Part shown: piece after piece, positions 694 to 17,652 of the stretch
How the letters are laid out: each line of letters starts with the position of its first letter
Position numbering within the stretch: position 1 is the first letter of the stretch
Source of the DNA: Byssovorax sp.
Lineage (GTDB): Bacteria > Myxococcota_A > Polyangia > Polyangiales > Polyangiaceae
Length of the DNA stretch: 59,645 bases
Assembly: GCA_025362495.1 (NCBI GenBank)
Contig: JANYGI010000158.1
Location: 1 to 59,645 of the forward strand
Reading direction: 5' to 3'
Made by a program: the position numbers and the translations under genes
Notes under the pieces: model-generated
Databases searched by the model: none
Told to the model about the DNA's origin: nothing
What the model saw: the letters and a program-made list of their open reading frames with translations, nothing else

Positions 694-1500
694 TCAGGCG
701 CGCGGTAGCAGCAGCGCGCCGCCCACGCCGAAGCCGACGGTGATCACCAGCGCCGTGGCCGATGCGGCCACGAGGCGCGCCGCCGAGAGCGCGGCGAGCT
801 CGGCGTCGTTGAGCAAGAGCACGCGCGCCCCGGGGATCCCCGCGCGGGCGCAAACCTCGGACGCGACGTCACGATCGCCTTGCAAACCAGGGTAACTGGA
901 GCCATCGGGGCAGCCGGCGTCGTCGAGCTCGGCCGGCAGCGCGAGGACGATCGCGTCGGCCTCGCCGAGATCGCGCATCGCCGCCGCCACCGCAGAGGCC
1001 ACGAAGTCACGGAACGGATCGCGCGGATCGCCGCGATCGCCGAGCGGCCGTGTGACAGGAAGACGCTCGAAATCGCGAGGGATCCGCGCTCGGCCCGCGC
1101 GCGACGAGATCTTGATCGACGACTGCCCGACGTCGACGACCAGCCCGGCTCGCGCGCCGATCGCGTCGAGCAGATCGAGCCCGCCGGCCTCGCCCGCGAA
1201 GACGCCGCCGTGGTGAAACGGGAGGCCGATCGATCGCAGCGCGGCCTCGACCGGGGCCGTCACGCCGCCGCCGCCCGCGAAGATCGCGTCGATGGCGCGG
1301 CAGGCGGCGGGCAAGGTGATCCGCGATCGCGTCGTCGCCTCGCCGCGCCGGATCGCCTCGATGCCTTCGGCGAGCCGCGCGCCGAAATCGATCGCGTCCC
1401 GCGCCTCGAAGAGCGTCTCTCCGCGCACCTCGAGATCCCAGATCTCGAGCGCCGTCACCCGGTGAGGGCGGATCCGGGGGTGGGCGGCGTTCGCGCGCAT
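694..1500 (-). CDS. ASKHA/ROK-like sugar-kinase-fold protein, motif order apparently permuted
   Basis: The product is 268 residues. The C-terminal half has a phosphate-1-like strand (LVVDVGQSSIKI), an LLLNDAELAAL segment like the ROK interdomain Asn-Asp, and a phosphate-2-like loop (VITVGFGVGG). The N-terminal half carries a glycine-rich adenosine-like motif (IFAGGGGVTAPVEAALRSIG) followed by GEAGGLDLLDA, which normally lies at the C-terminus of ROK kinases. This order suggests a circular permutation, which is inference. I chose ATG 1500 because the longer reading frame runs into the divergent RDD gene and adds no domain-like sequence. The substrate is unknown; it may be a kinase or an inactive homologue. 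Confidence 0.5.
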   Translation of the reverse strand: MRANAAHPRIRPHRVTALEIWDLEVRGETLFEARDAIDFGARLAEGIEAIRRGEATTRSRITLPAACRAIDAIFAGGGGVTAPVEAALRSIGLPFHHGGVFAGEAGGLDLLDAIGARAGLVVDVGQSSIKISSRAGRARIPRDFERLPVTRPLGDRGDPRDPFRDFVASAVAAAMRDLGEADAIVLALPAELDDAGCPDGSSYPGLQGDRDVASEVCARAGIPGARVLLLNDAELAALSAARLVAASATALVITVGFGVGGALLLPRA

Positions 1501-1687
1501 CAGAGTCACGAAACATACTCGACACCGAGCGTCGAGCGCCGCCGCGCCTTCTTCGCCGGCTTCCCACGTGCGAGGATAGGTTGACGAAAGACGGGCAAAC
1601 ATGCTCAAGTCTCGCCCGAGCAGCGATGGGGGAGCCGCGACGATCCAGGACTCGAGAAGGTCGTTTGCGCGCGCCCACGCGCCGCCG

Positions 1688-9537: not shown

Positions 9538-9572
9538 CTGAAGCTCTGCGGCGGTGATCCGCAGAGCTTCAG
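9538..9572. terminator. Bidirectional hairpin terminator
   Basis: CTGAAGCTCTGCGG at 9538-9551 is perfectly inverted at 9559-9572 around a seven-base loop, giving a 14-base stem. It lies 25 bases after the barrel-protein stop and overlaps the last codons of the converging GT2 gene, so it can serve both transcripts. There are no long T-tracts, as is common for GC-rich genomes. Confidence 0.8.
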
Positions 9573-10534
9573 TCGTGTCGATCGAGCCCCTCGATCGGCC
9601 GCTTGGTCTCGGCTATCGGCGTCCAGTCGGCGCACGGCGTCCGCGCCAGGTGCAGATAGAACGCGCGCTCCGCCGCATAGACTATCTCGCACGCCTTCAC
9701 GGCGGCCTGGAAGAGCCGGAACAGCCGGCGCTCCTCCGCGGTCGCGCGCGCCACGGCGGCGGGATCGGTGCGGCGGATCCCGTGCTTCTGGTGCGTGCTC
9801 CGCGTCTCCGGGAAGATCTGATCGAGGCGCTCTACCTCCATCCGCATCCGGCGAAAATAGCGGTACATGCCCCGCAGCGTCTCCGGCGGCCGGAACCACA
9901 GCAGGCCAGTCGCCGTCTCGCGGATCGCTCCGGGGCCGTGCTCGCGGGCGATGGTCCGCGAGAGATAGACGTCGTCGACGCGCAGCCCGAGGTGGGCCTG
10001 GTAGAAGAGATCGCGCGGCAGGCCTGCCAGCCGCGGGCCGAGCTCCGCGAGCGTGGGTATCGCCCAGTGGCGGATCGCGAAGAGCTTCCCGTTGAACCAC
10101 GTCCGCTGCGCGCTGAAGCCGCGATGGGCGTTGTAGACGTGGATCGCCCGCGCGATCGGCGTGCGCCGCGCGGGGGCGAGCGGCCGTCGGGGCGGGCACG
10201 CGACCTCGATCGCGGGATCGTCCATCGCGCGCGCGAGCCCGAGCAGCGTCTCTTCGTCGACCGCGATGTCGGCGTCGGCGAACACCTGAAACGGCGCGCC
10301 GGGGACGAGCCCGCGTCGCTGCGCCGCGACCTTGCCGCCCGAGCTCACGATCGTCCGCACCCCGCGCGACGCGGCGACGGCGGCGGTCGCGTCGACGCAA
10401 TCATCGAGGATCACCACCGGATCGAAGCGGATCCCCGCGTGACGCTCCGCGAACGCCGCCGACGCGAGCAGCGAGTCGAGGCACGCGCCGAGCGCGCGCT
10501 CCTCGTTCTTCGCCGAGACCGAAAGCGGGATCAT
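9569..10534 (-). CDS. GT2-family glycosyltransferase
   Basis: The product is 321 residues. It opens with the GT-A fold signature (SVSAKNEERALGACLDSLL), followed by VVILDDCVDAT and a DxD-like metal site in VFADADIAVDEETL. A later DDVYLSRTI segment supplies the usual acidic base region. No membrane helices are apparent, so it is likely cytosolic or peripheral. GT2 enzymes transfer a sugar from a nucleotide-sugar; donor and acceptor are unknown. It is the last gene of the radical SAM/asparagine synthetase cassette, and its start overlaps the GT1 stop as ATGA. Its stop lies inside the shared hairpin. Confidence 0.8.
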   Translation of the reverse strand: MIPLSVSAKNEERALGACLDSLLASAAFAERHAGIRFDPVVILDDCVDATAAVAASRGVRTIVSSGGKVAAQRRGLVPGAPFQVFADADIAVDEETLLGLARAMDDPAIEVACPPRRPLAPARRTPIARAIHVYNAHRGFSAQRTWFNGKLFAIRHWAIPTLAELGPRLAGLPRDLFYQAHLGLRVDDVYLSRTIAREHGPGAIRETATGLLWFRPPETLRGMYRYFRRMRMEVERLDQIFPETRSTHQKHGIRRTDPAAVARATAEERRLFRLFQAAVKACEIVYAAERAFYLHLARTPCADWTPIAETKRPIEGLDRHD

Positions 10535-11697
10535 GCGCCGAGCTCGAGCGCGCGCTCGGCGGCGATCACCGCGCCGTCGCGCGCCGCGTACGACGTCGCG
10601 ATCCGCGCTGCGGCCTCTCGATGCGAGCCCGCGGCGACGAGAGCGCGCAGCGCCGCGCGGCACTCCGCCACGCTGGCGACGCTCAGATCCAGGCAAATTC
10701 CCGCGCCGCTCCGCTCCACGAAATGCGCGTTGTGCGGCTGATCGTTGCAGATCGGCGTCACCAGGAGCGGCACGCCGGACGAGAGCGCCTCCATCACCGA
10801 GTTCGCTCCGCCGTGCGTGACCATCGCCGCGGCGCGCGGCAACAGCGCGAGCTGCGGCGCGTAGGCGACGGCGCAGACGCCGGGCGCGGCGATCGACGCC
10901 GCGAGATCGCCGGCGGAGATCACCAGCGCGTACGGCTCGCCCCGCGCGGCCTCGATCACCGTCGCGAAGATCCGCGGCTGATGAAACACCTGGCTCCCGA
11001 GCGAGACGTAGACGAACGGGCGATCGTCTTCGAGCTGATCCCACGGGAAATCGAGCTCATCGCCGCGCGCGCCGCGGGGACGCGACGGCCCCGCGAGCAC
11101 CACGCCCGGCGGCGCCTCGCCCACGAGCGCCCCGGTGGTGAAGGCGATCGTCAGATCGGGAGAGAGGCAATCACAGACGCGGAACCGCGCGGTGAGCCCG
11201 TGGCGCGCGAAGAGCGCGTCGCGATCGACCGCGAGCCAGGCGTTGGTGGCGATGAGCTCGCTCTCCAGCGTGTCGGGCACGACGGGGTTGAGCGACGACG
11301 AGAGCGCTGCCCAGGGGATCCCGGCGCGCGCGGCGACGATCGGCGCCTCGTAGGCCATCGGATCCGCGACGATCACCGCGGGCCGAAGCTCGGCGACGAC
11401 GCGCTCGAGCCGCTTCACCGCGGCGGGGACGTCGTCGAGCAGCAGCGCCTTGACCCAGGCGCGCAGGCGCGGCGCGTCGCGGACCAGCGCGGCGAGCGCG
11501 GCGCCGCGGTTGTCGTCCGCGGGCGCGGGCACCTCGTGCGCGTGGATCTGCTCGAATCCAAGCCTCGCGAGCGTGCCCGAGATGTCGCGCGCCGCGTGGA
11601 ACGCGACCCGATGACCACGGCGCGCGATCTCGGCGGCGGGGCCGAGCATCGGGTGGAGATGCCCTCGCTCGGGCAGCGTCACGAAGAGGACGTTCAC
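10531..11697 (-). CDS. GT1-family (MGT-like) UDP-glycosyltransferase
   Basis: This 388-residue enzyme has the GT-B architecture. The N-terminal acceptor domain begins MNVLFVTLPERGHLHPMLG, with the family's catalytic-region GHxxP. The C-terminal donor domain carries the signature THGGANSVMEALSSGVPLLV followed by DQPHNAHFVE. MGT-type enzymes glycosylate small hydrophobic molecules such as macrolides and peptides, so the acceptor is probably a small metabolite rather than a polysaccharide; this is inference. It lies 40 bases downstream of the asparagine synthetase-like gene and is translationally coupled to the GT2 gene. Confidence 0.88.
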   Translation of the reverse strand: MNVLFVTLPERGHLHPMLGPAAEIARRGHRVAFHAARDISGTLARLGFEQIHAHEVPAPADDNRGAALAALVRDAPRLRAWVKALLLDDVPAAVKRLERVVAELRPAVIVADPMAYEAPIVAARAGIPWAALSSSLNPVVPDTLESELIATNAWLAVDRDALFARHGLTARFRVCDCLSPDLTIAFTTGALVGEAPPGVVLAGPSRPRGARGDELDFPWDQLEDDRPFVYVSLGSQVFHQPRIFATVIEAARGEPYALVISAGDLAASIAAPGVCAVAYAPQLALLPRAAAMVTHGGANSVMEALSSGVPLLVTPICNDQPHNAHFVERSGAGICLDLSVASVAECRAALRALVAAGSHREAAARIATSYAARDGAVIAAERALELGA

Positions 11698-11737
11698 GGC
11701 GCGAGGTTACCTCGCCTCGCGCGCCGCGTCCGAGGCG

Positions 11738-13525
11738 TCAACTCGAGGCCTCGGAGCTCGCCGTGACCACTCCATGATGCCGCGCCCACGAGGCCAGGGC
11801 GGCGACGCGGAACAGGCCTGCTCGCTCCGCCTCGTCGAGGGTACGCCCCGGCACGAGCCAGGCGTTCACCGCCTCCAGATCGAGGAATTCGCCCAGGAAT
11901 CCGCTGTCTTCGTCGATGGCTTTACGCGCCTCGGCGCGCCAGATCTCGCCCACGCCCTGATCTTTCGGCAAAGCGCTCTTCCGGCGCACGCGAATCGCCT
12001 CGGGGATCAGCCCCTTGACGGCCTCGCGCAGCGCCCACTTCTCCACGCCTCCACGCAACCCCAGCTCCGGGGGAACGCGGAGCGCCAGATCGACCAGCTC
12101 CGGGCTCGCGAACGGGACGCGCGCCTCCAGCCCGAAGGCCATGGTGTGGATGTCTCCGTTGTGGAGCAGCCGCGGTAACCAGCGCTTCACGATCAGCAGC
12201 GTTGTCGCCAGTTGCCGGTCGCGCGCCGTGTCGTGGCGACCGCCCGCCTCCTCGATCAGGCCGCGATAGTGCGCGTCGAGATTGAAGGCCGGATCGGCCC
12301 AGCGATCCCTGCGGACTGGCACGCTCCCGAGGCGTCGCACGATCGCCCCCGGCGTCCGCGTGGCCGCCTCGTCGAGCAAGAAGTGATATCCATAGTGCGT
12401 CTCGTCGGCGGCGTCCCCGACGAGCACGGCCTTGAAGCGCCGGCTCGCCGCGCGGGCGAGGTGGTGCTGCGCGATCTCCTGCTCCCAGGCGGGCAAGGCG
12501 TCGTCGATGGCGGCGATCCGGTGGAGATCGGCGCCGAGCCCCGAGCGAGGGACGGAGACCGTCTCCATCGCCACACCGAGCTCTCTCGCGGCCAGCGCGG
12601 CGAACGGGCCGTCGTAGGAGACCACGATGGTCGAGCGAGCGTAATCGTAGGAAGCCTGTCCCTCGAAGGCGACTGTGAACGTCTCGATCGGGGCCTCGCG
12701 AGCCGCGAGCGCCGTCAAGATCGTCGAGTCGAGTCCTCCGCTCAGGAACGCTCCCACCGGCTCGTCGGCGCGCAGCGAGCGCGACACCGCGTCGCCCAGG
12801 GCTGCGCGGAGGGCGGATACGAGAGTGTCACTCTCCTGAGTGCCTGGATCGCGATCGAGGCGCGGAGCCCACCAGGGCGCGATCTCCACGCCCGCGCGCG
12901 AGACCCGCATCCGGTGGCCGGGCAACAGGTGCTCAACCTGCTCGAACATCCCGTGCTCGACGCCGCTGAAGCACGGGGCGACCAGGTACTCGAGGATCGA
13001 AGGCGCATGGCCACGAGGCGCGCGATCCTCCGCGGCGAGGATCGCCTTGGCCTCCGACGCGAACAGCAATCCATGCTCGGTGCGCGCGAACACGAGAGGC
13101 TTCACCCCGAGCCGATCGCGCGCGAGCAAAGCCTCCTGGCGGTGGCTGTCCCAGAGGCAGAACGCGAACATTCCATCGAGGCGGGCGAGGGCGCCTTCGC
13201 CCCAGCGCGCGCAGGCCGCGAGCACCACCTCGACGTCGCCGCGCGTCCGGAAATCCCAGCCGGAGCGGAGCTCTTCGCGCAGCTCTCGGTGGTTATAGAC
13301 CTCGCCGTTGTAGGTGAGCACGTAGCGCCCGTCGCGGCTCGTGAAGGGCTGAGCGCTGCCCGCGTGATCGAGGAGCGAGAGCCGTCTGTGGGCGAGGCAG
13401 GCCGCGCCGGAGGATAGCAATCCTCGACCGTCGGGCCCACGGTGGGCGAGGGCGCGCTCCATGCGTCGCACCCGCGCTTCGTCGGGAGGCGCGTCGAAGC
13501 GCAAGATGCCGGCGATCCCGCACAT
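11738..13525 (-). CDS. Full-length divergent asparagine synthetase (glutamine-hydrolysing)
   Basis: The product is 595 residues. The class II glutamine amidotransferase domain starts MCGIAGIL with nucleophilic Cys2, then RGPDG near 30 and YNGEVYNH near 72. The synthetase domain has the ATP PP-loop SGGLDST at 262-268. The segment that is G-x-G-x-DE-x-FGGY in AsnB reads VGDAADETHYGYHF, so the substrate-binding loop is altered. The enzyme should release ammonia from glutamine and amidate an adenylated carboxylate, but the acceptor may not be aspartate. Its ATG abuts the TAG of the upstream truncated homologue with no spacer. Housekeeping AsnB is an alternative. Confidence 0.85.
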   Translation of the reverse strand: MCGIAGILRFDAPPDEARVRRMERALAHRGPDGRGLLSSGAACLAHRRLSLLDHAGSAQPFTSRDGRYVLTYNGEVYNHRELREELRSGWDFRTRGDVEVVLAACARWGEGALARLDGMFAFCLWDSHRQEALLARDRLGVKPLVFARTEHGLLFASEAKAILAAEDRAPRGHAPSILEYLVAPCFSGVEHGMFEQVEHLLPGHRMRVSRAGVEIAPWWAPRLDRDPGTQESDTLVSALRAALGDAVSRSLRADEPVGAFLSGGLDSTILTALAAREAPIETFTVAFEGQASYDYARSTIVVSYDGPFAALAARELGVAMETVSVPRSGLGADLHRIAAIDDALPAWEQEIAQHHLARAASRRFKAVLVGDAADETHYGYHFLLDEAATRTPGAIVRRLGSVPVRRDRWADPAFNLDAHYRGLIEEAGGRHDTARDRQLATTLLIVKRWLPRLLHNGDIHTMAFGLEARVPFASPELVDLALRVPPELGLRGGVEKWALREAVKGLIPEAIRVRRKSALPKDQGVGEIWRAEARKAIDEDSGFLGEFLDLEAVNAWLVPGRTLDEAERAGLFRVAALASWARHHGVVTASSEASS

Positions 13526-14563
13526 CTAGACGACGAGACCCATCGCCTCGCAGGCGAGCGAGAGCGTCGTCCACTGCGTTCGCGAGCGCGCGTCGTCGAG
13601 CCCGAGCGGCCGGTCGAGCGACGCCGCGAGCCGCTCGAAGCGGGGGAGATCGACGAAGCGTGCGAGGTCGATCGCCGGCGCCAGGCGAGGCACCTTGGGA
13701 GCGTCGACGAGCGCGTCGGGGAGCTTGCCGCGCGCCGCCTCGCGCAGCGCTGACTTGCGCGGATCGGGCGCGCTCGGGGCCGCGAGCGCGATCACCGCCT
13801 CGTCGAGGAACGGGCACGAGAGCGCGACGCCCGAGGCCGCGGCGAGGGCTCCGACGATCGGCAGGTAGATCTCCGAGGGCGCGCCCGCGAACACCTGATC
13901 GGCGCCGTCGCCGGTGATCACCACGTCGATCTCGTCGCCGGCGAGCTGCTCGAAGAGCAGGTGCTTCGCCACCGGGTGCGCGTTGAAGAGCGGTGTTTCG
14001 GCCTGCGCGATGCACGCCGGGAGCCCGAGGAGAAAGTCCTGCTCCGAGGCCTCGATCACGATTGGTTTGAGGTCAAACGATCGCACGAGGCGCGCCGCGG
14101 CCTCGCTCTCGTCGTACGCGGCGTCGCCGGCGAGGCGCGGCGCGAGCACGTAGATCGCCGGCATCGACGAGCGAAACGTGCCGGCGAGGAGCGCGAGCAG
14201 CAGCGCCGAGTCGAGGCCGCCGCTCAGCGCCAGCGCCACGCGCTTGCCGCGGCCGACGACGCTGTCGAGCGCCGCGAGGAGCCGCCGTTCGAGGCTGCCC
14301 ACGCCGCTGCCCGTGGGCGGCGGGGCCGGCTCGACGCGCCACGCGCCGGGCTCGCCGGAGAGCCGGTGCCCGCGCGGGACGCGACGGATCCCCTGGATCC
14401 AAGCGCGATCGGTCGCGTCGATCTCGCCGAACGCGAAGCTGACGCCGACCGGATCGAGGCCGAGGCCCGCTTCGCCGGACCCCGCGAGCGCGCGCAGCGT
14501 CGTCGCCGCGGGGCCGTCAGGCCGGTAAAACAGCCGCCGCAGGCCGTGAGGATCGCGATCCAT
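13526..14563 (-). CDS. Truncated asparagine-synthetase-like ATP-dependent ligase lacking the glutaminase nucleophile
   Basis: The product is 345 residues. The synthetase domain has an intact PP-loop (SGGLDS at 114-119) and VVITGDGADQVFAG. The first 85 residues keep only the end of the amidotransferase domain (DPVGVSFAFGEI, then IQGIRRVPRGHRLSG) and have no N-terminal Cys, so glutamine hydrolysis is impossible. It could adenylate a carboxylate and use another amine, as beta-lactam synthetase and lasso cyclase homologues do, or act with the full-length homologue next door. ATG 14563 shares one base with the radical SAM stop (TGATG). The upstream in-frame extension overlaps that gene and is rejected. 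Confidence 0.72.
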   Translation of the reverse strand: MDRDPHGLRRLFYRPDGPAATTLRALAGSGEAGLGLDPVGVSFAFGEIDATDRAWIQGIRRVPRGHRLSGEPGAWRVEPAPPPTGSGVGSLERRLLAALDSVVGRGKRVALALSGGLDSALLLALLAGTFRSSMPAIYVLAPRLAGDAAYDESEAAARLVRSFDLKPIVIEASEQDFLLGLPACIAQAETPLFNAHPVAKHLLFEQLAGDEIDVVITGDGADQVFAGAPSEIYLPIVGALAAASGVALSCPFLDEAVIALAAPSAPDPRKSALREAARGKLPDALVDAPKVPRLAPAIDLARFVDLPRFERLAASLDRPLGLDDARSRTQWTTLSLACEAMGLVV

Positions 14564-15867
14564 CACGCGGCGCCCGGCCTCGCGCGGAGCGCCGGGAGGA
14601 AGCGCCCTTCGCGCACGTCGCGCCGCGAGAGCTGCACGTGCGCGACCAGCGGCCCCGAGGATCCATGGCAGTAGCGGCACGCCGAGAGAGCCTGATCGGC
14701 GTTGAGGTACGCGAGCAGGCGGTCCTCGAAGTCCATCGCGTCGAGCGCGACGCCGTCGTCGCCCGGCTGCGGCGCGGGATCCAGCTCGCGCCCCTTCACG
14801 TCGAGCCGCTCGCGAAAGTCCTTCTGGTAGGCGGCCCGCGTGCACTTGAAGAAGACGCCGCCGCGCACGACGAGGCAGCGATGCCGGAGCCAGCAGGCCT
14901 CGTAGACGGCCTGGGTCGCCGCGTCGTCCGGGCGCCGCTCGCTGGCCATCACCTCGCTGAAGCGGTCGACGGGCTTGACGTTGAGCACCACGTCGAACTC
15001 GCGCGCTCTGTCCTCGACGAGGCGCAGGTGCTCGGGCTTCACGGGAGCGCTGGAGTAGCTGGAGATGGTGAGATGATCGAGCGCCCGCCAGAAGTCGTCG
15101 GTCATCCGGTGGAGCAAGAGGCCGTTGGTGAAGAGGCGGATCGTCGGACTTATCCCCGTCTCGCGCAGCACGCCGAGGATGGCGGTGATCTCCGGGTGGA
15201 GCAGCGGCTCACCGCCCATGATCTTGAAGACGTCGACGTCGAGGTGCCGGGCCATCGTCCGACACTGGGCCTCGATCTCGGCCACCGATAGCATCTTGTC
15301 GGCCACGTAAGGCGACATGTTGCAGCAGTGAGCGCAGCGCAGGTTGCAATGCTCGACGACGTGGAGCTCGAAGGCCTCGACGCGGATCCGCCCGCCGGCG
15401 CGCGTGTACTGCTTTCGCTGCGAGGTCGCGATCTCGCCGCGCCGCGCGAACACCGCGTCGACGGCTATCGGCCCGTCGCCGGACGGCGATCCTACCTCGA
15501 CGAGAATGGCACTCTCCTGCGGGAGCCGGCGCTGCAGCCACCGCGCGGCGGCCTCACGGTCGGCCTCGTCGCGGAGCACGACCCGCGCGGAGACGATGTC
15601 TTCGACGCGAAACCCGTGGTCGAGACCGAGCCGCTCCAGGCTCCCGAGCGCCGAGATCGCCCGCAAACGCGCGGCGATCCCCTCGAGGCCTCGAATCAGA
15701 TCGTCGGCTGGCGAGGCCGCCATGGAGGCCAGCAAGAACTGGCGGCCGGCGGCCTCGAACACCGTCGCTCGAGCGAGGCTGTCGCGGACCTCGCCGAGCG
15801 CGTGGCCGTCGCCCTCGTGCAGGCCGACGACCACGCCCTCCGGCACCCACGCGAACCCGTCCAGCAT
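14563..15867 (-). CDS. RidA-like domain fused to a radical SAM enzyme
   Basis: The product is 434 residues. Residues 1-145 resemble the RidA/YjgF (chorismatase-like) fold: RVEDIVSARVVLRDEADREA followed by a final strand GPIAVDAVFAR aligns with its second half. The radical SAM core follows, with CNLRCAHC (Cys174, 178, 181), a KIMGGEPLLHPE SAM-binding motif and later strands LFTNGLLL and TISSYSS. The C-terminal region has extra cysteines (CWLRHRC, CTR, CRYCHG) compatible with a SPASM-like auxiliary cluster. It is the first gene of the cassette, 48 bases after the Cys-rich lipoprotein. The substrate is unknown; peptide or small-molecule modification is inferred. Confidence 0.75.
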   Translation of the reverse strand: MLDGFAWVPEGVVVGLHEGDGHALGEVRDSLARATVFEAAGRQFLLASMAASPADDLIRGLEGIAARLRAISALGSLERLGLDHGFRVEDIVSARVVLRDEADREAAARWLQRRLPQESAILVEVGSPSGDGPIAVDAVFARRGEIATSQRKQYTRAGGRIRVEAFELHVVEHCNLRCAHCCNMSPYVADKMLSVAEIEAQCRTMARHLDVDVFKIMGGEPLLHPEITAILGVLRETGISPTIRLFTNGLLLHRMTDDFWRALDHLTISSYSSAPVKPEHLRLVEDRAREFDVVLNVKPVDRFSEVMASERRPDDAATQAVYEACWLRHRCLVVRGGVFFKCTRAAYQKDFRERLDVKGRELDPAPQPGDDGVALDAMDFEDRLLAYLNADQALSACRYCHGSSGPLVAHVQLSRRDVREGRFLPALRARPGAA

Positions 15868-15915: not shown

Positions 15916-17652
15916 TTACGGGCAGGCGGCCGAGGCCACGAGGACGTCGTCCACGTTCCACGAGCCGGTGACGAAGACGCCACTCTGACCGATGTCGAAG
16001 CCGAAGCGCACCTTCATTCCTGCGTTCTTGTAATTCGTCACATCGTAGCTCACGTAGGTCCATCCCATCCCGACAGGGGGAGAGTCGGTGATCGCGGGCG
16101 AGCTGCCCGACTGCCACAGCACGATCCACTGCGTGCCGTTGTAGACCTCGACGCGGTTGTCCATGTACGGCGAGTAGTCGCTGTTGAGCCAGCGATAGAA
16201 GCCGAAGATGACGGGGCCGGTCGCGCTCGAGGTGTCGAACGCCGGGCTCTCCAGGTAGGAATACGGGTGGAGCATGGGGTTCTCGGCGCCGCCGATGACG
16301 ACGCCGGCCACCCCGTTGTCAGCCGTGGGCGTGTGGTCGTTCGGCGGATCGTCGCCGTTCATGCCCGACGAGCTGACGACCTCCGGGCCAATCTGCCACT
16401 CGGCTCCTAGGAGCCATCCCTTGGAGTTGTTCTTGAAGTCGTCGGTGAAGTAGATCGTGGGTCCCTGGCCGCCGCCGCACACGCCCGCGGTGCACTTGTC
16501 GCCCGAGGTGCACGAGCTCGCGACGCAGGCCCCGCCCTCGTTGGTGGGCGTGCCGGCGCCGCAGACGCCCGCCGCGCACGTGGTCCCCGCGGTGCAGTTG
16601 TTGCCGTCGTCGCAGACGGCGCCGTCGTTGCCAGGGACGCTGTTGCACGTCTGGGTCCCCTCGTTGCACTGGAAGACGAAGCAGCCGTTGGCCGGACCGC
16701 AGGTGTTCGGATCACCACCGCACAGGCCCGCCGTGCAGTGATCGTTCACCGTGCAGAACAGGAAGTCGTCGCAGGACGTGCCGTTGGCGGCGTTGCCAGA
16801 CTTGCACATGCCGACCGAGCAGACTCCCTGGGTGCAGGGGTCGAACATGCCGTCGTCGCACAGCGTTCCATCGTTGGCCGGCTGCGGCGTGCACGTCGCG
16901 TTCTGGCACACGCCGACGACGCAGGGGTTGAACCCTCCGACGGCACACGACGCGCCGTCGTTCTTGGTCGTCTTCTGGCACGCTCCGCCCATGCAGAACG
17001 CGTCGAAGCAGGTGTTGTTCTGCCCCGAGTCGCAGGGCATCCCGTCACCCTTCATCTCGGGCTTGCAGCCGATCTGCGGGTCGCAGACTCCGACGCTGCA
17101 GAGATCGTCGAAGATCGAGCAATCCTTCGTCGTGCCGCCGCCGCAAACCCCGTTACTGCAGGTCGTGTTGCTCTTGCAGAAGTCGTTGCTCGGGCAGCTC
17201 TGTCCGTCGTTTCCCGGCGCCGCGGCGCAGCTCTTGGTCGCCTCGTCGCAGGCGCCGACGTTGCACGCGTCGGCCCCGGGACAGACCTTCTGGGAGCCGC
17301 CATGACAGACGCCGGCATGGCAAGTATCGTTCTGCGTGCAGAACAGTCCGTCCTCGCACGGCGCGTTCTCCTTGGCCATGTCGGGGAGCTTGCCGCACAT
17401 GCCGTTGACGCACGCGCCTTGATTGCAGGCGTCGCCGAAGCCGGCGCACTCCGTTGCCGTCGTGCAGGTCGACGGCTGGCCGCCGACGCCGGTGGTGGCG
17501 GTGGCCCCCTTGCCACCGGTGCCCATGCCCCCTGCGCCTCCGTCGCTGATGCCGCCCGCCCCCGTCGGGTCGACGCTCGTCGCACACCCCATCGCCACGA
17601 TTGAAAGCGAAATTGCTGCCGCTCCCAGGCTCGAGCTCAAGCTACGCCACAT
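15916..17652 (-). CDS. Cys-rich repeat lipoprotein with C-terminal beta-sandwich-like domain
   Basis: The product is 578 residues. A short signal peptide ends VAMGC, a loose lipobox with Cys near 23. A Gly/Ala/Thr linker follows, then about 330 residues of tandem disulfide-type repeats with spacing like C-x-GVC-GG and C-x2-G-x-PC. The last 180 residues form a Trp/Tyr-rich region (TDDFKNNSKGW and onward) resembling a jelly-roll adhesion or carbohydrate-binding module. Such proteins are common surface components of myxobacteria with unknown targets. It precedes the radical SAM gene on the same strand but ends 48 bases before it, and no functional link is shown. Confidence 0.78.
   Translation of the reverse strand: MWRSLSSSLGAAAISLSIVAMGCATSVDPTGAGGISDGGAGGMGTGGKGATATTGVGGQPSTCTTATECAGFGDACNQGACVNGMCGKLPDMAKENAPCEDGLFCTQNDTCHAGVCHGGSQKVCPGADACNVGACDEATKSCAAAPGNDGQSCPSNDFCKSNTTCSNGVCGGGTTKDCSIFDDLCSVGVCDPQIGCKPEMKGDGMPCDSGQNNTCFDAFCMGGACQKTTKNDGASCAVGGFNPCVVGVCQNATCTPQPANDGTLCDDGMFDPCTQGVCSVGMCKSGNAANGTSCDDFLFCTVNDHCTAGLCGGDPNTCGPANGCFVFQCNEGTQTCNSVPGNDGAVCDDGNNCTAGTTCAAGVCGAGTPTNEGGACVASSCTSGDKCTAGVCGGGQGPTIYFTDDFKNNSKGWLLGAEWQIGPEVVSSSGMNGDDPPNDHTPTADNGVAGVVIGGAENPMLHPYSYLESPAFDTSSATGPVIFGFYRWLNSDYSPYMDNRVEVYNGTQWIVLWQSGSSPAITDSPPVGMGWTYVSYDVTNYKNAGMKVRFGFDIGQSGVFVTGSWNVDDVLVASAACP

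Follow-up and report, generated by a model that had tools for sequence, protein, structure and literature searches.

Gene Layout of the Locus

The window analyzed here is a 59,645-nucleotide stretch of Byssovorax sp. DNA that makes up one entire contig (C160) of a 10.8-Mb genome in 240 contigs (G000). On its minus strand, positions 9569–15867 hold five genes, encoding in order a radical S-adenosylmethionine protein (rSAM, P0001), an asparagine synthetase homologue without most of its glutaminase domain (AsnT, P0002), a full-length homologue (AsnB, P0003) and two glycosyltransferases (GTs), GT1 (P0004) and GT2 (P0005); a sixth gene, for the kinase-like protein KIN, stands 8 kb away from this block. 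The five genes had been put forward in a sequence-only reading as a tightly coupled, same-strand set, and this was borne out, with overlap or zero spacing read from the sequence at three of the four junctions. The P0001 stop and the P0002 ATG have one base in common (14563), the P0002 stop ends at 13526 with the P0003 ATG at 13525, and P0004 and P0005 overlap in ATGA (10531–10534); a 40-bp gap separates the P0003 stop (11738) from the P0004 GTG (11697). The features are as follows, lengths being given in amino acids (aa).

14563..15867, minus strand: P0001, 434 aa, twitch radical SAM enzyme of SpeY/HygY type with a RidA-fold domain joined to it (PF04055, E = 2.6e-12; SpeY 7wzv, 5.5e-39 by phmmer)
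15430..15810, minus strand: P0001 N-domain, RidA fold, residues ~19–146 (AlphaFold2 (AF2) model; 5ag3, Z 14.2)
14614..15405, minus strand: P0001 radical SAM and twitch domain, residues 155–418 (three rSAM and four auxiliary-cluster Cys kept in 17/17 aligned sequences)
14875..14877, minus strand: Cys331 codon of P0001 (aligns with Cys183 of a Streptomyces HygY-type protein)
13526..14563, minus strand: P0002 (AsnT), asparagine synthetase-type amide ligase with the glutaminase domain mostly gone, 345 aa from the ATG (PF00733, 1.1e-24; alignment)
11738..13525, minus strand: P0003 (AsnB), full-length glutamine-dependent asparagine synthetase homologue with Cys2, 595 aa (PF13537, 5.3e-42; PF00733, 9.7e-56)
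10531..11697, minus strand: P0004, GT1 glycosyltransferase, MGT-like, 388 aa (PF00201, 2e-19; PF06722, 7.6e-17; TIGR01426, 9.3e-39, below cut-off)
9569..10534, minus strand: P0005, GT2 glycosyltransferase with DAD motif, 321 aa (PF00535, 8e-7)
694..1509, minus strand: KIN, ROK/ASKHA-type kinase in probable circularly permuted order (13-member family; swapped-order PDB profile matches; ROK alignment; AF2 predicted template modelling score (pTM) 0.77)

Conservation of the Cassette in Myxobacteria

Together, the five-gene block and KIN represent, in this window, a cassette conserved among myxobacteria and comprising rSAM, glutaminase-less AsnB, AsnB, GT1, GT2, the (probably permuted) ROK kinase and a PIG-L deacetylase. 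In the genome searches only the best few candidates were scored per genome (four to seven for P0001, P0005, KIN and GT1), and the genomes for the P0001, KIN and GT1 searches were drawn from larger groups. A pattern search with P0001 returned 24 matching GTDB contig stretches, two of which encode a relative, in Nannocystis exedens and N. bainbridge. In these two genomes the whole five-gene block is present with the order kept, followed by KIN and then by PIG-L; identities to the two loci are 58/58, 43/42, 52/52, 60/58 and 57/57% for P0001 to P0005, respectively.

With P0005 as the query, matches at E ≤ 1e-15 were obtained in 11 of 317 class genomes, every one at a cassette locus. Profile searches found GT1, preceding GT2, and KIN at all 11; KIN directly adjoins the other genes in nine, and lies ~2 kb off in L038 and 8 kb off in the window. 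Homologues of rSAM and AsnT were each found in 10, the one gap being L042, where the contig stops short. AsnB was likewise found in 10 (no match in L043) and PIG-L in eight (no match in the window, L040 or L041). All seven genes are contiguous in five loci (L008, L009, L018, L019 and L039) and form a split set in L038, and locus profiles revealed a tandem pair of rSAM genes in L040 and L041, one with the N-domain and one without it. Co-occurrence in other genomes was the check that the sequence-only reading had proposed; with GT1 and KIN at every GT2 locus, the homologues are not scattered. No description of the gene set was found in the literature searched, most subscription papers lying outside that search, in keeping with the earlier view of an undescribed biosynthetic cassette.

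Searches with the other genes showed how far the set varies. Among 377 phylum genomes, eight have a P0001 match at E ≤ 1e-20. Five of these matches lie at loci that also contain KIN and GT1 (G000, G051, G216, G207 and G095), one at a variant locus (L020, in G282) and two outside any such gene set (L023 in G087, where no other family was found, and L024 in G353, with a GT1-like stretch only). Full-profile KIN matches were seen in five of the 377 (six best candidates each), all at cassette loci; the remaining 6 of the 11 KIN-profile matches cover the ordinary ROK half only. The GT1 search, in which 15 of the 289 class genomes covered gave a match at E ≤ 1e-50, added six further loci. One of these is ordered AsnT-AsnB-GT1-KIN-PIG-L (L063) and another AsnB-GT1-PIG-L (L064); in the other four GT1 was the only member found, with PIG-L 2.5 to 4.3 kb distant in two. 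Two distant loci, L021 and L022, keep rSAM, AsnT, GT1, KIN and PIG-L, and neither the full AsnB nor a P0005-type GT2 was found there. The five genes named at the outset therefore do recur in order and are mostly kept together, but the set is larger, KIN and the PIG-L of most relatives having been missed, and since searches of some relatives failed to find the full AsnB, GT2 or even rSAM, these three do not belong to an invariant core.

In L020 and L064, the slot before AsnB that AsnT occupies elsewhere holds a cytidylyltransferase-like protein (PF01467; L020 17962–18888, minus strand; L064 1323–2249, plus strand), the two being 47% identical to each other. APH-family kinases are present at both loci, where KIN was not found; we read KIN and APH as serving equivalent small-molecule phosphorylation. 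Downstream of PIG-L, L021 (61–2116, minus strand) and L022 (2382–4323, minus strand) have two more genes in common, for an AMP ligase related to the PaaK/FlxY models (below cut-offs) and a protein without a Pfam match.

Flanking open reading frames (ORFs) of at least 110 aa, compared for all pairs except L008/L009, are common to same-genus pairs; beyond the genus there were five weak matches (65–100 bits) among L009, L022, L024 and L041. Pairwise gene identities correlate across nine loci (r 0.41–0.79 for ten gene pairs, 34 locus pairs each, with pairs L008/L009 and L040/L041 and locus L042 left out), a result that alone cannot separate cassette history from species history. In the joint tree, L019, L018 and L039, from three different families, cluster with support 1.0, which suggests that the cassette moved as a unit by transfer or was duplicated as a unit long ago. 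Immediately upstream of the window's cassette, on the same strand, lies a gene for a Cys-rich repetitive protein (15916–17526, minus strand) with no Pfam match at E ≤ 0.01.

The Radical SAM Enzyme

P0001 had been read as a RidA-like protein joined to a radical SAM domain, and both parts were recovered, the latter by PF04055 and the RidA fold in the predicted structure rather than by Pfam, where no model reports the N-domain at E ≤ 1. By sequence, the closest solved structures are 7wzv, 7wzx and 7x0b (E = 5.5e-39, versus 8.9e-5 for MoaA), which are titled twitch radical SAM dehydrogenase SpeY; this assignment rests on sequence, the AF2 model being poor outside the N-domain (mean predicted local distance difference test score (pLDDT) 52.8, three sequences). 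The only match in a search of plasmid records was an rSAM of Streptomyces sp. SAT1, 37.6% identical over 61% of P0001 and surrounded by a predicted APH(7'')-Ia (94.9% identity), glycosyltransferases and aminotransferases. We take this plasmid stretch to resemble the hygromycin B cluster, in which case its rSAM would be HygY.

Across the alignment, the CxxxCxxC radical SAM motif and the four twitch Cys of the auxiliary cluster (Cys325, Cys342, Cys397 and Cys400 in P0001) are present in 17 of 17 rows. Cys331 of P0001 aligns with residue 183, also Cys, of the SAT1 protein. This position is Cys in 15 rows and Ser in two, SpeY and the L020 relative. Immediately ahead of this position the chain is two residues shorter in P0001 and in most members of the cassette, but the spacing to the next cluster Cys is unchanged (11). 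In HygY, residue 183 is reportedly the cysteine that donates the hydrogen atom, and its change to Ala is reported to switch the outcome; we take the Cys331 position to be this donor site of an epimerase, occupied by Ser in the dehydrogenase SpeY. On that basis P0001 is probably an epimerase of a sugar carbinol. It could instead be a SpeY-like dehydrogenase giving a keto sugar, which would be compatible with the product proposed below; SpeY being the closest solved structure and the Ser of the L020 relative speak for this, but with Cys at this position in P0001 and 14 of the 16 other rows we consider it somewhat unlikely.

The substrates of HygY and SpeY are sugars that have been glycosylated beforehand. 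Since the rSAM domain belongs to their family, the radical step probably follows glycosylation as well, and the order proposed in the sequence-only reading (radical step, amidation, glycosylation) is probably wrong.

In the AF2 model the N-domain has ten-residue means of 63–84 over residues 21–140. Its predicted fold is closest to the C-terminal half of chorismatase (5ag3, Z 14.2, root mean square deviation 2.2, 119 aligned; 5a3k, Z 13.2) and also resembles many RidA chains (Z 11–12.6). P0001 does not contain a full two-half chorismatase; only ~150 residues precede the rSAM domain, and their fold is that of the C-terminal half. The L020 relative has a longer N-part that matches the chorismatase N-half model PF21168 (9.2e-6; 26.1 bits, cut-off 27). 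Given these two matches, the N-domain may have descended from a chorismatase, one half being left in the window's protein. We assume that it serves in binding or has a structural role.

HygY-like twitch rSAM genes also lie outside the cassette, in other neighborhoods, in L023 (9380–10297) and L024 (9490–10350), and both keep Cys at the Streptomyces Cys183 position. The chorismatase-radical SAM fusion of L020 (9578–12692, minus strand), with Ser at this position, adjoins another radical SAM protein, this one bearing a SPASM domain, and an APH-type kinase (12769–13662) comes after the two radical SAM genes.

The Paired Asparagine Synthetase Homologues

The sequence-only reading, that a homologue without the glutaminase Cys precedes a full-length one with Cys2, proved accurate. 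P0003 begins MCGIAG and has both glutaminase and PP-loop synthetase domains. It scores 376.9 bits on TIGR01536 (cut-off 267.1), and its nearest solved chain is the hydroxyamidotransferase 7ylz (1.1e-61). The GATase_7 match (5.3e-42) is found in P0003 and not in P0002, which can be aligned only from about P0003 residue 133 onward; with most of the domain missing, P0002 lacks the glutaminase Cys. It retains SGGLDS, GDGAD and two invariant lysines.

P0003 was also considered as the housekeeping AsnB, being the only one of the genome. This was rejected, as three further homologues exceed the TIGR01536 cut-off (493, 441 and 336 bits, with P0003 at 377). On another contig of the same genome (L007, G000:C176) a LarE sulfur transferase was noted (TIGR00268, 289.8 bits, cut-off 150).

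A Probable Circularly Permuted ROK Kinase

Pfam gave no significant family for KIN (ROK at E = 0.13). A profile of 13 KIN members matched the ROK glucomannokinase 1woq (2.8e-7) through the second half of KIN, and the first half gave weak alignments to the C-terminal parts of ASKHA proteins (MreB, 0.014; DnaK, 0.42; CoA activase, 0.44). When the halves were swapped, the E value improved to 1.3e-8 for 1woq and from 9.7e-4 to 1.1e-5 for 3lm2, as a single alignment across the junction. Swapped-order matches to KIN were likewise seen in all six ordinary ROK proteins examined, which had been recruited through their match to the KIN second half. Using hhalign, KIN scored 99.3 against ROK end to end in permuted form and 87.8 in native form, with a mean of 77.6 and a maximum of 92.2 for 40 column-shuffled controls. 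N223, D224, G250 and G252, corresponding to the ROK catalytic ND and GxG, are invariant (13/13). The linear ROK order, with DxGxT near the N terminus and the ExGH segment after GxGxA, is not found in KIN, where it is swapped.

Several results weigh against a permutation. The permuted profile weakens the MreB match (E 0.014 to 0.18), native whole-sequence HMMER bits exceed permuted ones for four of the six ROK proteins, and for all six the best of 30 column-shuffled controls exceeds the permuted score, even though that score lies higher than the mean of the controls in each case and the alignment runs unbroken across the junction in four. On its own, the moved half adds just −0.4 to 3.6 bits to each ROK match. 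Pfam scans of native and permuted KIN gave ROK E values of 0.12 and 0.08, with a match in one of five proteins only in either form. The predicted structure is an ASKHA fold (pTM 0.77, best Z 9.6; one good model of five, with mean pLDDT 76.8 versus 45.7–55.4 for the others), a comparison that cannot show permutation because the two ASKHA lobes resemble each other. Considering the 1woq and 3lm2 matches, the swapped order in six of six ROK proteins and the hhalign scores, a circularly permuted ROK kinase is likely, not proven.

CxCGxxGC, the ROK zinc motif, is absent from the KIN family, as it is from the ROK proteins of L056, L058, L060 and L061; those of L057 and L059 have it. If KIN is indeed circularly permuted, it would to our knowledge be without precedent among ROK kinases. 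The literature searched yielded no account of such a protein; PMC1976428 mentions circular permutation and the ROK family, in unrelated passages. Plasmid record searches with KIN, and also with P0005, gave nothing useful.

Glycosyltransferases and the PIG-L Deacetylase

The assignment of the last two genes of the block to an MGT-type GT1 and a GT2 held. P0004 matches UDPGT (2e-19), EryCIII-like_C (7.6e-17) and the NCBIfam MGT model TIGR01426 (9.3e-39), the last at 133.5 bits against a cut-off of 260; P0005 matches PF00535 (8e-7) and no NCBIfam family at E ≤ 0.1. The PIG-L protein of the N. bainbridge cassette matches PF02585 (7.5e-14), and its S-P-H-x-D-D motif is invariant among the PIG-L sequences aligned (11/11).

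Proposed Product and Pathway

We propose with moderate confidence that the product of the cassette is a small amino-sugar glycoside that bears an amide and undergoes radical epimerization. GT1 and GT2 would build the glycoside on an acceptor made elsewhere, and in the lineages bearing PIG-L the transferred N-acetyl sugar would be de-N-acetylated. The AsnB-type enzymes would activate a carboxylate as acyl-AMP, full-length AsnB supplying ammonia from glutamine and glutaminase-less AsnT using a substrate amine, and KIN would phosphorylate a sugar hydroxyl. The twitch rSAM would abstract hydrogen from a sugar carbinol carbon and Cys331 would return hydrogen to the other face, so that the center is inverted. 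HygY inverts a sugar center likewise in hygromycin B biosynthesis. A more specific form of the proposal, to be taken as tentative, is a new myxobacterial class of amino-sugar glycosides, with a HygY-like epimerase carrying a chorismatase-derived RidA domain, AsnT acylating the amine freed by PIG-L and the permuted ROK kinase phosphorylating the glycoside.

Some observations count against the proposed amino-sugar glycoside. In addition to the window, L040 and L041 stretches, where PIG-L was not found, a genome-wide search of G548 and G550 gave no PIG-L match (drafts 94 and 72% complete; only 150 of 192 candidates scored in G548). The radical step is not universal among cassette relatives, as neither rSAM nor a P0005-type GT2 was detectable within the stretches examined of L063 and L064. 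In 5 of 12 AsnT proteins (L018, L019, L039, L040 and L041) the PP-loop serines are replaced (GGGxDA/G), which leaves the activity of these five open to doubt; the loop of the window's AsnT is intact. As for the acceptor, all six cassette genomes searched (listed completeness 89–98%) have one DHQ synthase-type (PF01761) match each, presumably the shikimate enzyme, and inositol-1-phosphate synthase was found in only three of the six; thus no cyclitol acceptor can be named for the GTs. A 2-deoxystreptamine core was rejected, since with a single PF01761 match per genome no dedicated 2-deoxy-scyllo-inosose synthase was found in any of the six.

A relocated cassette PIG-L was sought in the window's genome, which has five PF02585 matches. 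The top one scored 115 bits on the cassette PIG-L profile (cassette members, 277–322 bits; 150 of 242 candidates scored). This best candidate adjoins genes read by eye as carotenoid genes, a geranylgeranyl diphosphate synthase and a carotenoid desaturase, and was not counted. A PIG-L protein with neighbors of this kind was noted in L049 (8612–12155, G000:C166).

Among other products, decoration of a cell-surface glycan or glycolipid was considered, in which the AsnB-type enzymes would amidate a uronic acid in the manner of O-antigen amidotransferases, with the repeat unit being built by the GTs and the kinase. AsnB homologues are common beside GTs in O-antigen and exopolysaccharide loci, and P0003 scores on the XrtA/PEP-CTERM amidotransferase model, although far below its cut-off (290 of 816.9 bits). 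However, no polymerase, flippase or polyprenyl-phosphate transferase is among the seven conserved families (flanking genes were not annotated individually). With GT1 belonging to the MGT type, which works on small molecules, and a SpeY/HygY-like radical SAM domain, this alternative appears unlikely.

More doubtful still is a molecule like mycothiol or bacillithiol, for which GT1 would link an N-acetylhexosamine to the acceptor, PIG-L deacetylate it and the glutaminase-less AsnB acylate the freed amine. This would suit L021 and L022, where GT1, PIG-L, the glutaminase-less ligase and KIN occur together without a detected full AsnB or P0005-type GT2; but the window, L040 and L041 have rSAM, AsnT, AsnB, GTs and KIN with no cassette PIG-L found, and the sporadic distribution (11 of 317 genomes) is unlike that of a housekeeping thiol.

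A ribosomally synthesized and post-translationally modified peptide (RiPP) or lasso pathway, with an AsnB homologue as macrolactam cyclase, is very improbable: P0003 matches the lasso cyclase model, and P0003 and P0002 the albusnodin/ikarugamycin macrolactam cyclase model, but the scores fall well short of the cut-offs (P0003, 197 bits against 525 and 82 against 300; P0002, 42 against 300), and no short ORF is conserved. For the latter comparison, none of 766 ORFs of 18–120 aa beside 12 cassettes, taken from up to 2 kb on either side of the cassette, or less if the contig stopped sooner, had a non-sister match at E ≤ 0.01 (pairs L008/L009, L040/L041 and L021/L022 excluded; L020 and L042 not included). 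A RiPP precursor beside the cassette genes is therefore unlikely, in agreement with the sequence-only reading, which had seen no precursor peptide.

In Nannocystis strains, which can be cultured, the cassette is a well-defined set of biosynthetic genes open to direct testing. One rSAM family with Cys or Ser at a single position offers a natural test of the choice between epimerization and dehydrogenation, and the set also contains a ROK-fold kinase with an apparent circular permutation, as well as an AsnB-type ligase shorn of most of its glutaminase domain.

Comparison with Known Systems

With HygY of hygromycin B and SpeY of spectinomycin biosynthesis, P0001 has in common the radical SAM core, the four-Cys twitch domain and a C-terminal CRxCxG, together with the Cys at the Streptomyces Cys183 position; it differs in its extra RidA-fold N-domain and in its neighbors, two AsnB-type ligases, a GT1 and the likely permuted ROK kinase. 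P0003, with its Cys2-glutaminase and PP-loop synthetase domains, resembles the class B asparagine synthetases, to which beta-lactam synthetase and 7ylz also belong. Beta-lactam synthetase retains a Cys-less glutaminase domain, whereas P0002 has lost most of it. KIN has the D-x-G, NDA and GxGxA of ROK sugar kinases of the polyphosphate glucomannokinase type (1woq, 3lm2), but the segment that follows GxGxA in ROK forms the N terminus of KIN. As in the PIG-L GlcNAc de-N-acetylases of mycothiol, bacillithiol and aminoglycoside biosynthesis, the cassettes of relatives carry a PF02585 protein with S-P-H-x-D-D, although none was found in the window's own copy. The moenomycin cluster is alike in gene content, as it too has a pair of AsnB homologues along with several GTs and a radical SAM enzyme, the last being a methyltransferase.

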